Under the pieces are notes generated by a model. That model had not been told where the DNA came from and did no database searches. It was given only the letters and a program-made list of their open reading frames with translations. This document shows positions 16,628-20,272 of a DNA stretch of 34,761 bases, one piece after another. Location: positions 18,858-53,618 of the forward strand of contig MGVZ01000020.1 of the NCBI GenBank assembly GCA_001800745.1, read 5' to 3'. The position numbers and the translations under genes are program-made. This DNA comes from Euryarchaeota archaeon RBG_16_67_27 (GTDB lineage Archaea > Thermoplasmatota > Thermoplasmata > RBG-16-68-12). Each line of letters starts with the position of its first letter. Positions within the stretch are counted from its first letter, which is position 1.

Positions 16628-18583
16628 GTGTTCGAGGTCCTCGAACGGGACGGGCTCGCGCGGATCGGCGCGCTCGACACGCCCCACGGGCGGGTGACGA
16701 CCCCCGCCCTCCTCCCCGTCGTGAACCCGGGTCGCCCGATCGTGCCGCCCGTGGAGCTCGCGGACCGCTTCCATGCGGAGATCCTGATCACGAATGCGTA
16801 CATCCTGGGCAAGGGCGCGCACCGCGAGGAGGTCATGCGGCGGGGCGTCCACGACTTCCTCGGTTTCCAGCGAGCGGTGATGACGGATTCCGGGGCGTTC
16901 CAGGCCCACGTGTACGGGGACGTCGCGGTCTCGAATGTGGAGGTCCTCGAGTTCCAGAAGGCGATCGGCTCGGACCTGGGCACGATGCTCGACGTGTTCT
17001 CGGAGCCGGAGCACGATCACGACCGGGCGTCCGCGGACGTCGACGAGACGATCCGGCGCGCGAAGGAAGCGGACGCGATTCGCGGGGACCTCGGGCTCGT
17101 CGGCGCGGTCCAGGGCGGACTCCACGCGGACCTCCGGGAGCGTTGCGCCCGGGAGGTGTCCACCCTCGGGATCGCCGTCGCCGCGATCGGGGGCGTGGTC
17201 CCCCTGATGGAGGCGTACCGGTTCCGCGACCTCGTCCGCGTGATCGTCGCCTCGAAGCGGGGCATGGACCCTTCGAAGCCCGTCCACCTGTTCGGCGCAG
17301 GGCACCCGATGCTCTTCCCCCTCGCGGTGCTCCTCGGCTGCGACATGTTCGATTCCGCATCCTATGCGAAGTACGCGCGCGACGGGCGCATGCTCTTCCC
17401 GGACGGGACCCGTCGGGCCGCGGAGCTCCGGGACAGCGGATGCGTCTGTCCCACGTGCGCGTCCCACGGAATCGATGAGCTGTCGAGGGACGAGCGGCTC
17501 CTCGCGGAGCACAACCTCCACGTCTGCTTCGCGGCCGTCCGCGAGGTCCGCCGCGCGATCGCCGCAGGGGAGCTGTGGGAGCTCGTCGAGCGTCGGGCGC
17601 GGGACCATCCCGCGCTCCTCGACGCGCTCCGGGATCTCCGGGCGCACAACGATTTCCTCGAGGCGTCCGAGCCTCTCTCCCGCCGCGGCGCGCTGTACTA
17701 CGTCGGCCCGGAGACCGCCCACCGGCCGGTCCTCCACCGATACCGCTCGCGGCTCCTTGCGCGCTACTCGAGCCCGCCCGCGAAAGGCCTCCTCGTCCTG
17801 CCCGAAGGCGACCGGCCGTACGCGCACCGGTACCGGGGCACCGTCGCGCGGGTGACGGCGGCCGCAGATGTCCACGTCGTCGTGAAGTCCCTCTGGGGGC
17901 CGGTACCTCTCGAGCTCGACCACGTGTGGCCGCTCTCCCAGTCCCTGATCCCGGACCGCGTGGACGTCGAGGCGCTCGAGGCCGCGGAGGTCTTCTTCCG
18001 GGAGTGGGCCGCGGGCGCAGGCTACGCGTTCGGCGTTCTCTGGGAGGGACCGGGCACGCTCGAGGATCTCGCACGACGGGCCCCCGGCGGTCGCAGCGTC
18101 GACTGGAACCTCCTCCGCGTGCGTGCGACCGCGGACCTCCAGTTCGGGCGGGGCGCGGCGGACGCCCTGCTCCGCGGTCAGGTCTCCCTCGTCGTCTCAA
18201 AGAACACGAAGAAGGTCCGGAACGTGATCGTGGGCGGCGAGCACGTCCTCTCCCTGCGGGCGGAGGACGGCTACTTCACCCTCAAGGCCGCGGGCGCCCG
18301 CCGTCTCCGGGAGGCGTTCGCCCCGCCCCGGCTCCGGGTCGTCGTCGACCCCGACGCGATTCCGTTCCACCGCGAGGGAAAGAACGTCTTTGCGAAGTTC
18401 GTCCGGGACGCGGATCCGGACATACGTCCGGGCGACGAGGTTCTCGTCGTCTCCCCCGAGGACGACCTGTGCGCGGTCGCCCGCTCGGCGATGAACCGCC
18501 GCGAGATGCTCGCGTTCACCCGCGGCGTCGCCGCGTTCGTCCGCGAGGGCGTGCCTCCCGCGACGTCCGCTCCGCTGCGCTGA
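16628..18583 (+). CDS. tgtA: Archaeosine tRNA-guanine transglycosylase with C-terminal PUA domain
   Basis: TPALLPVVNPG, MTDSGAFQ, GLVGAVQGGLH, CVCPTCASHG Zn site, C-terminal KNVFAKFVRDADPDIRPGDEVLVVSPEDDLCAVARSAM PUA; GTG start, TATA-like gcatatcc about 25 nt upstream. Confidence 0.95.
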   Translation: MFEVLERDGLARIGALDTPHGRVTTPALLPVVNPGRPIVPPVELADRFHAEILITNAYILGKGAHREEVMRRGVHDFLGFQRAVMTDSGAFQAHVYGDVAVSNVEVLEFQKAIGSDLGTMLDVFSEPEHDHDRASADVDETIRRAKEADAIRGDLGLVGAVQGGLHADLRERCAREVSTLGIAVAAIGGVVPLMEAYRFRDLVRVIVASKRGMDPSKPVHLFGAGHPMLFPLAVLLGCDMFDSASYAKYARDGRMLFPDGTRRAAELRDSGCVCPTCASHGIDELSRDERLLAEHNLHVCFAAVREVRRAIAAGELWELVERRARDHPALLDALRDLRAHNDFLEASEPLSRRGALYYVGPETAHRPVLHRYRSRLLARYSSPPAKGLLVLPEGDRPYAHRYRGTVARVTAAADVHVVVKSLWGPVPLELDHVWPLSQSLIPDRVDVEALEAAEVFFREWAAGAGYAFGVLWEGPGTLEDLARRAPGGRSVDWNLLRVRATADLQFGRGAADALLRGQVSLVVSKNTKKVRNVIVGGEHVLSLRAEDGYFTLKAAGARRLREAFAPPRLRVVVDPDAIPFHREGKNVFAKFVRDADPDIRPGDEVLVVSPEDDLCAVARSAMNRREMLAFTRGVAAFVREGVPPATSAPLR

Positions 18584-18773
18584 CGGACGCGAGGTACCCG
18601 TCCAGGGCGTGGAGGAGGCTCATCGGCCCGTCCGCGGCCGCGACCGCCGTGACCGTCCGGCCGCGGCGCCGCGTGCGTACGGAGCGCTCGTCGTCCGGAG
18701 CGACGGCGCCCTCGACCGCCCGCGCGCGCTCGTCGTCGTCGAATGTGAGGGTGAGCCGGGCACGAGACTTCAT
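18516..18773 (-). CDS. KEOPS complex subunit Pcc1-like
   Basis: MKSRARLTLTFDDDERARAVEGAVAPDDERSVRTRRRGRTVTAVAAADGPMSLLHALDGYLASVSAAE matches the Pcc1/CTAG pattern; ATG lies 5 nt after the tRNA-Gln 3' end. Confidence 0.8.
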   Translation of the reverse strand: MKSRARLTLTFDDDERARAVEGAVAPDDERSVRTRRRGRTVTAVAAADGPMSLLHALDGYLASVSAAERTSREARPRGRTRRRRG

Positions 18774-18778
18774 CGGGA

Positions 18779-18851
18779 TAGCCCCGGGCAGATTCGAACT
18801 GCCGTCGCGGGTTCCAAAGACCCGTATGCTTGACCGCTACACCACGGGGCT
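18779..18851 (-). tRNA. tRNA-Gln (anticodon TTG)
   Basis: Reverse complement AGCCCCG TG GTGT AGCGGTCAA GCAT A CGGGT CTTTGGA ACCCG CGAC GGCAG TTCGAAT CTGCC CGGGGCT A; 73-nt cloverleaf; no encoded CCA. Confidence 0.97.
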
Positions 18852-20135
18852 GCAGGCGTGCATTTCCGCGGGTGTATAAAGCCCATCGGTTGCGACGTAC
18901 CCACGGAGGTCCGTCGCGCCCGCGCCGTCGATGCGCACGCGGACGAACTCTCCGATCGCGACGGGCTCGCGGAGGACGACCTGCCGGTACTCCGGCGTTC
19001 GGGCGAGGACCGTGCCCTCCTTCCCTGGCTCGGTGACAACGACCTCGACCTCGCGACCGACGTGCGCGGCGTGGACCTCGGTCGCCACCGCGAACCGAAG
19101 CGCGGCGAGCCGACGCGACCTCCCCTTCACCTGCCACCCGACGATCTGGCCGGGCATCGCGGAGGCGGGGGTCCCGGGGCGCGCGGAGAACCGCGTGACG
19201 TTCACGATGTCCGGCCGCACGCGCCGCACGAGGTCCATGGTCCCCTCGAAGGCGGCTTCCGTCTCTCCGGGGAACCCCACGATCGCGTCCGTCGAGAGGC
19301 ACAGCTCCGGGTACGCGCGACGGAACCCGGCGACGATCTCCTCGAAGTCGCGCACGATGTACTCGCGCTGCATCGCCTCGAGGACGCCGTCGCTCCCGCT
19401 CTGGACGGGAAGATGGAGGAACTTGAACACCTTCTCCGATGCGAACGACTCGATGAGCTCGTCGACGATCGGGAGGACCGTGAGGGGGTCGGCCATGCCG
19501 ACGCGCACACGGAATGTCCCGGGGATCTCGTCGATCGCTTCCAGGAGGCGAGGGAGGTCCGTTTCCGTGTCCCGGCCATACGCCGCGGTGTCCTGCCCCG
19601 TGAGCTTGATCTCCCTCACACCGCGCGCGACATGGCGGCGCACCTCCGCGACGAGGTCGCCGATCAGCCGCGACGACACCCGGCCCCGCGCGACGCGGGT
19701 GATGCAGTACGTGCAGCGGCCTGCACATCCCTGGGCGATCGGGACGATCGCGTCGTGCCAGCCGAACGACCGGGACTCGACCTCCGCCGCCCGGTCCCCG
19801 CATGCCGTGCCCGCACCGATGAGGTCGACGATCTCGGGCCACTTCCGGGGCGGCAGGAGTTTCGCGCGGGGCGCGAGCGCCATCACCCGGTCCCGTTGCG
19901 CCGCCGCCATGCAGCCTGCGACGACGAGCGGCCGGTCATGGGCCGCGAGGGCGCGGATCCGGCGGGCCATCCGCCGTTCCGTCGCATCGACGACCGTGCA
20001 CGTGACGAGGACGTGGGCATCCGCCTCCGCCTCGGAGCGCTCGATCGAGTGTCCGCTCCGGGAGAGCGCCTCCTCCATGAGCCGGGCCTCCCCGTAGTTC
20101 TGGGTGCAGCCGTACGCCTCCACGTAGACCTTCAC
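18837..20135 (-). CDS. tRNA-t6A37 methylthiotransferase-like (e-MtaB/CDKAL1/MiaB family), radical SAM plus TRAM
   Basis: GTG 20135: VKVYVEAYGCTQNYGEARLMEEAL; VTCTVVDATERR; VVAGCMAA; radical SAM CAGRCTYC; C-terminal TRAM-like VGREVEVVVTEPGKEGTVLARTPEYRQVVL. TATA-like tatatc about 23-27 nt upstream. Confidence 0.93.
   Translation of the reverse strand: MKVYVEAYGCTQNYGEARLMEEALSRSGHSIERSEAEADAHVLVTCTVVDATERRMARRIRALAAHDRPLVVAGCMAAAQRDRVMALAPRAKLLPPRKWPEIVDLIGAGTACGDRAAEVESRSFGWHDAIVPIAQGCAGRCTYCITRVARGRVSSRLIGDLVAEVRRHVARGVREIKLTGQDTAAYGRDTETDLPRLLEAIDEIPGTFRVRVGMADPLTVLPIVDELIESFASEKVFKFLHLPVQSGSDGVLEAMQREYIVRDFEEIVAGFRRAYPELCLSTDAIVGFPGETEAAFEGTMDLVRRVRPDIVNVTRFSARPGTPASAMPGQIVGWQVKGRSRRLAALRFAVATEVHAAHVGREVEVVVTEPGKEGTVLARTPEYRQVVLREPVAIGEFVRVRIDGAGATDLRGYVATDGLYTPAEMHACSPVV
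18875..18880 (-). promoter_or_regulatory. TATA box for tRNA-Gln, inside the e-MtaB-like CDS
   Basis: tataaa on plus strand (TTTATA on minus), centred about 27 nt upstream of the tRNA 5' end at 18851; encodes Leu-Tyr of the C-terminus. Confidence 0.7.
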
Positions 20136-20272
20136 GACCCGAACGAAGGCGGCCAATGTATATCTCGGCTTCCCCGGGCGATCCCGGAGTCGTCCCCCGG
20201 CGCCGCGGATCCGACGGGACCTCGGGCGCGCGTCCGCAACTCTTATGGATGAGGGGCCTCTTCGGGTCGTCG

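Follow-up and report, generated by a model that had tools for sequence, protein, structure and literature searches.

In animal mitochondria, mRNA ends are created by cutting out tRNAs whose genes border on protein genes or overlap them (tRNA punctuation). In the thrU-tyrU-glyT-thrT-tufB operon of Escherichia coli, tRNAs lie upstream of a translation-related protein gene on one transcript, with a leader that contains a ribosome-binding site between the tRNA and tufB. Among archaea, a tRNA-Lys is located within the 5' untranslated region of TK0306 in Thermococcus kodakarensis, mapped at 159 nucleotides (nt) (PMC4247193). Archaeal tRNase Z also acts on non-tRNA joints, such as the 5' end of 5S rRNA, according to passages of PMC7714728 that cite such work. 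Here, an arrangement of this kind was analysed in Euryarchaeota archaeon RBG_16_67_27, in a stretch of 34,761 nt (assembly GCA_001800745.1, contig MGVZ01000020.1, positions 18,858 to 53,618; referred to as the window). Its tRNA-Gln(UUG) gene overlaps the end of the methylthiotransferase gene e-mtaB and is followed, after 5 nt, by a small gene best read as pcc2. The arrangement is real, conserved and unusual, and it belongs to a kind already known, the tRNA-mRNA co-transcript. We consider it probable (about 65%) that tRNA-Gln and pcc2 are transcribed from the tRNA promoter, that tRNase Z cleaves the joint transcript and that pcc2 is then translated as a leaderless message, each of these steps being predicted from genome comparison.

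As in the case of TK0306, a tRNA gene lies upstream of, and is apparently transcribed with, a protein gene; the present locus differs in having a spacer of 4-6 nt instead of a 159-nt untranslated region, a genus-wide order and, if the transcript is cut, a leaderless mRNA. Mitochondrial punctuation likewise involves tRNAs that abut or overlap protein genes, whereas the present case concerns one tRNA, equipped with a separate box A, in an archaeal genome and not a whole polycistron. In contrast to the ribosome-binding leader of the tufB operon, almost no leader precedes pcc2. Cleavage at the tRNA would set the 5' end of the next RNA, as it does for 5S rRNA, but that RNA would be an mRNA. Passages of papers on actinobacterial leaderless mRNAs contain no tRNA-derived mRNA.

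The junction between tRNA-Gln and pcc2

The features at the junction, in window coordinates, are as follows.

18779..18851, minus strand: tRNA-Gln(UUG) (ARAGORN; Rfam RF00005, 61 bits); CCA not encoded; G at position 37
18875..18880, minus strand: TTTATA within the e-mtaB coding sequence, the box A of tRNA-Gln; first base at -29 from tRNA nt 1
18774..18778, minus strand: spacer TCCCG, 5 nt, between the discriminator A (18779) and the pcc2 ATG (18773)
18516..18773, minus strand: probable pcc2, Pcc1 paralog and fifth subunit of KEOPS; matches to PF09341 and NF011470

ARAGORN and Rfam both placed tRNA-Gln(TTG) at 18851..18779 on the minus strand. The geometry described in the initial annotation proved exact: the e-mtaB stop codon coincides with tRNA nt 13-15, TTTATA lies within e-mtaB, and TCCCG is followed directly by the ATG.

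For comparison, 19 genomes of the genus were examined, of which 17 carried tRNA-Gln(UUG); the other two were incomplete assemblies without a match to this tRNA. The pcc2 ATG was located 4-6 nt after the tRNA in 17/17 genomes having it, while the distance between e-mtaB and the tRNA ranged from -15 to about 600 nt in the same genomes. When the tRNAs of the window's own genome and of the relative G014 were inspected, no other was followed within 8 nt by an ATG opening a reading frame of at least 60 amino acids. Because the gap is this uniform and has no counterpart at other tRNAs of these two genomes, it is not attributed to chance. A tRNA-to-pcc2 gap of 8 nt was found in G029, which belongs to another family of the same order.

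Several further candidates were discarded. A tRNA-Gln followed by 4 nt and an ATG in another class (G245, L237) opened a frame of 2 residues only. Similar matches in G028, G030, G001 and G006 represented tRNA-Gln(CUG) or look-alikes that do not lead into pcc2, and the tRNA-Arg(CCG) of G014, with an ATG 9 nt downstream, had no counterpart in the window's own genome. The remaining glutamine tRNA, tRNA-Gln(CUG), is interrupted by an intron (L301, G000:C21:2200-3600; L302, L290, L299); in G001, G006 and G014 its D arm also seems to contain an extra insertion of about 25 nt, and ARAGORN consequently misnames it.

Probable transcription and processing of pcc2

A TTTATA box A was present 28-30 nt before tRNA-Gln in 16/16 genus genomes, regardless of whether the region was coding. 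The hexamer is rare, with 10 occurrences on both strands in about 374 kb of G014. Training on 64 regions upstream of tRNAs in two genomes gave a promoter motif, roughly gAANNTTTAT, that started mostly 37-40 nt before the tRNAs; upstream of tRNA-Gln it scored 5.3-8.6 bits in 15/16 genomes. No promoter signal above background was detected for pcc2, the best score in the 50 nt upstream being -1.3 bits vs a background median of -1.6, and the region in which a pcc2 box A would have to lie is formed by the T-arm and acceptor stem of tRNA-Gln. Since pcc2 lacks a promoter signal above background and lies adjacent to tRNA-Gln on the same strand, it is most likely transcribed through the tRNA.

The motif was also enriched 36-40 nt before protein starts (31 genes vs 8 in a reversed control), at the same spacing as before tRNAs. 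As it peaks at this distance from start codons, leaderless genes appear to be common in the lineage. A search for exact TATA words ahead of protein genes yielded too few hits to reveal a pattern, which the learned motif did show. A test for oligo-T terminators was dropped, as almost no tRNA in the lineage has a T run downstream, so that its absence after tRNA-Gln is uninformative. Most tRNAs (G000, G014; L091-L156) have a box A around -33 to -29 and would be transcribed almost without leaders, although the genus has RNase P RNA.

These data are consistent with the following course of events. Directed by the box A inside the e-mtaB end, transcription of tRNA-Gln would begin at tRNA nt 1 or no more than a few bases away and continue into pcc2, a gene predicted to lack a separate promoter; some pcc2 transcript may also come from e-mtaB read-through. 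tRNase Z would then cut after the discriminator base. This cut would define the 3' end of the tRNA and leave pcc2 with an mRNA leader of 4-6 nt, to be translated as a leaderless message. A tRNase Z gene was found in 5/5 genomes tested, including the window's own. In Haloferax, mRNAs whose leaders measure 0-5 nt are classed as leaderless, and few have leaders slightly above that length (PMC4983044). Two proposals of the initial annotation, namely that the small gene is co-transcribed with the tRNA and that tRNase Z leaves a nearly leaderless mRNA, are supported by the conserved gap, by the missing promoter room and signal and by the presence of the tRNase Z gene.

Several observations weigh against this reading. 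The contrast between tRNA-joined pcc2 and the genes separated from the tRNA in other families is suggestive but not complete: among 11 separated pcc2 genes, a box A was clear in 4 (L184, L209, L220, L226; rank at or below 0.007) and borderline in 2, and the remaining 5/11 did not rise above background, so that the motif may miss promoters. The leaders of 6 nt in G016 and 8 nt in G029 exceed the 0-5 nt class, into which most genus members fit. The sister genus g2 lacks the tight tRNA-pcc2 spacing. Finally, the 3' end of pcc2 overlaps that of the convergent gene tgtA by 67 nt on the opposite strand in 15/15 genus genomes (less in other families); this overlap is as fixed as the upstream gap, and tight spacing could therefore come from compaction alone.

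This last point underlies a quite unlikely alternative in which compaction is all there is, pcc2 having a start or promoter that was not recognised or being translated from the uncut transcript, with no special part for tRNA processing. It would account for the close packing of both pcc2 ends, 4-6 nt upstream and 67 nt of convergent overlap downstream in all genomes checked, and archaeal promoters can be weak. However, the required box A site coincides with the tRNA T-arm and acceptor stem, where the motif is not above background, and with a folded tRNA ending 4-6 nt ahead of the ATG there would be little space for the ribosome to enter.

A decidedly improbable alternative holds that most pcc2 expression comes from a long e-mtaB-tRNA-pcc2 transcript driven by the e-mtaB promoter, from which the tRNA is excised as punctuation; RNase P would then remove the e-mtaB stop codon in the nine genomes in which it overlaps the tRNA. 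The three genes do follow one another on the same strand without a gap, and e-mtaB and pcc2 share a pathway and are neighbours in several families. Yet about 570-600 nt separate e-mtaB from tRNA-Gln in G014, G001 and G016, with the tRNA-pcc2 gap unaltered; a box A at about -29 precedes tRNA-Gln in every genome; and the tRNA-pcc2 pair of G029 is tight although no e-mtaB was recognised in the upstream stretch examined.

If transcription from the tRNA promoter followed by tRNase Z cleavage is correct, tRNase Z serves as an mRNA-maturation enzyme in these archaea, leaderless mRNAs arise by cleavage as well as by initiation, and the production of a tRNA-modifying complex is tied to tRNA maturation. 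The stronger claim, that cleavage is the only route to a translatable pcc2 mRNA and that tRNA processing capacity sets the capacity for N6-threonylcarbamoyladenosine (t6A) formation through a conserved coupling, is unlikely.

Identity of the small gene

The small protein scored modestly, above the respective cut-offs, against PF09341 (23.0 bits; cut-off 20.9) and NF011470 (28.9 bits; cut-off 27), and its start position is matched by the aligned starts of homologs. Most genomes searched contained two Pcc1-family matches each. The canonical pcc1 of the window's genome lies elsewhere (G000:C45:17703-17882; 37.9 bits) and encodes the motif NSYLRW. In alignments, the tRNA-linked gene of relatives has D/E-D where canonical Pcc1 has N-S: relatives within the genus read LDDYL or LDEYL, and the linked genes of other families are also acidic at both positions. 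Pcc2, a Pcc1 paralog, is the fifth subunit of archaeal KEOPS, and acidic residues replace N72 and S/T73 in it (PMC9889334). The tRNA-linked proteins of the relatives resemble it as Pcc1 paralogs with acidic residues; the protein encoded in the window deviates, reading D-G where D-D/E would be expected (L-D-G-Y-L-A-S vs L-D-D-Y-L-A-C in relatives), the first acidic position being present and the second not. When the PDB was searched by sequence with a relative's protein, the family matches were the Pcc2 chains 7a66 and 7a67, both weak (expectation value about 0.4), and no Pcc1 chain was among the matches.

On these sequence comparisons, the gene downstream of tRNA-Gln is best read as pcc2. Its previous description as Pcc1-like holds at the level of the family but needs correction as to the gene, the canonical pcc1 being located elsewhere. 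The proposal that its product and e-MtaB act in one pathway (t6A and its 2-methylthio derivative ms2t6A at position 37) agrees with both identifications, and tRNA-Gln itself, with G at nt 37, is not a t6A substrate, as had been noted. A regulatory coupling of tRNA maturation with both proteins may exist. A Cgi121 gene was detected in 4/5 genus genomes tested and was not found in the window's own assembly, which is 75% complete. Poor conservation can cause pcc2 to be missed by annotation (PMC9889334); when the same paper was searched for operons, neighbouring genes and the genomic setting, nothing was found. Irrespective of mechanism, the class-wide neighbourhood of e-mtaB, tRNA-Gln, pcc2 and tgtA provides a positional marker for this gene.

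The e-mtaB end and the wider neighbourhood

The remaining features of the locus are listed below.

18837..20135, minus strand: e-mtaB, tRNA (t6A37-C2) methylthiotransferase; GTG start at 20135; stop TAG at 18839-18837, inside tRNA-Gln
18837..18851, minus strand: e-mtaB/tRNA-Gln overlap, 15 nt, encoding SPVV-stop; stop codon = tRNA nt 13-15
20159..20164, minus strand: GATATA, possible weak box A of e-mtaB, 29 nt upstream of the GTG, read from the sequence
16631..18583, plus strand: tgtA, archaeosine tRNA-guanine transglycosylase (TIGR00432, 490 bits), convergent; start approximate

Together, these genes form a compact tRNA-modification neighbourhood in the order e-mtaB, tRNA-Gln(UUG), pcc2 and, on the opposite strand, tgtA, whose 3' end overlaps that of pcc2 by about 67 nt (18516-18583). 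The identity of e-MtaB was established with TIGR01578 (408 bits; cut-off 314.7) and the Pfam domains UPF0004, Radical_SAM and TRAM. If GATATA acts as its box A, the e-mtaB mRNA could be leaderless as well.

The e-mtaB side was readable in 16 genus genomes. The stop codon lay inside tRNA-Gln in 9/16, in identical frame, which rules out a sequencing error as the cause of the overlap; in the other seven it was absent, with e-mtaB-tRNA gaps of about 22 to 600 nt (570-600 nt in G014, G001 and G016). An e-MtaB tree requires at least three changes for the overlap; its basal forks are poorly supported, and a single origin with losses is compatible. Most of the amino acid sequence of the additional e-MtaB tail follows from the box A and from tRNA nt 1-15. 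It looks as if an earlier stop codon was lost and the next in-frame stop was supplied by the tRNA. Because the overlap occurs in only 9/16 genomes whereas TTTATA is found in 16/16, the tRNA is assigned a separate promoter, and the overlap looks like an incidental consequence of the loss of spacer DNA. It is highly improbable that the stop codon within the tRNA is a selected switch tuning e-MtaB, by which one transcript gives either a complete e-mtaB mRNA or tRNA-Gln and never both: the frame is identical in nine genomes and the either/or outcome is logically forced for any single transcript, but the overlap is missing from seven genomes and needs at least three changes on the tree, box A and tRNA sequence account for much of the tail, and the gap in other families is 6-76 nt, with one at 304. 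Apparent e-MtaB/tRNA overlaps in L192 and L202 vanished once the real stop codons had been located.

Since a separate box A lies at about -29, tRNA-Gln need not depend on processing of the e-mtaB transcript, and RNase P would strip the e-mtaB stop from read-through transcripts only. This removal, proposed in the initial annotation, is not supported as a designed feature, the overlap being absent from 7/16 genomes. RNase P RNA was found in 3/5 genus genomes. In G011, four archaeal RNase P RNA matches were obtained, three on one contig (C33:1-237, 819-993 and 2456-2616) and one at C24:722-1025; one was above and three were below the family cut-off.

Beyond the genus, most Thermoplasmata loci whose flanks are long enough, many of them from Methanomassiliicoccales, have tRNA-Gln(UUG) downstream of e-mtaB and on its strand, the values given above for other families comprising 33 measured gaps. 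In L189, L203, L205, L200, L219 and L227, a set that includes Methanomassiliicoccaceae and relatives, only 6-8 nt lie between the e-mtaB stop and tRNA-Gln, and the AT-rich region of the tRNA's box A must therefore extend into the end of e-mtaB. Loci L183 and L199 have the order e-mtaB, tRNA-Gln, two opposite-strand genes (for a small membrane-like protein and a PF00881 nitroreductase), pcc2 and convergent tgtA; L199 carries an additional gene between e-mtaB and tRNA-Gln. The neighbourhood is old, and loss of the two opposite-strand genes between tRNA-Gln and pcc2 would give the layout of the genus. As to whether the e-mtaB/tRNA-Gln/pcc2 order is conserved, the tight joint holds throughout the 17 genus genomes, but two genes intervene in other families and g2 lacks it. 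The nearest named records are Thermoplasmata metagenome-assembled genomes from soil and sediment (UBA8695, the EA_ series and RBG_19FT_COMBO_69_17).

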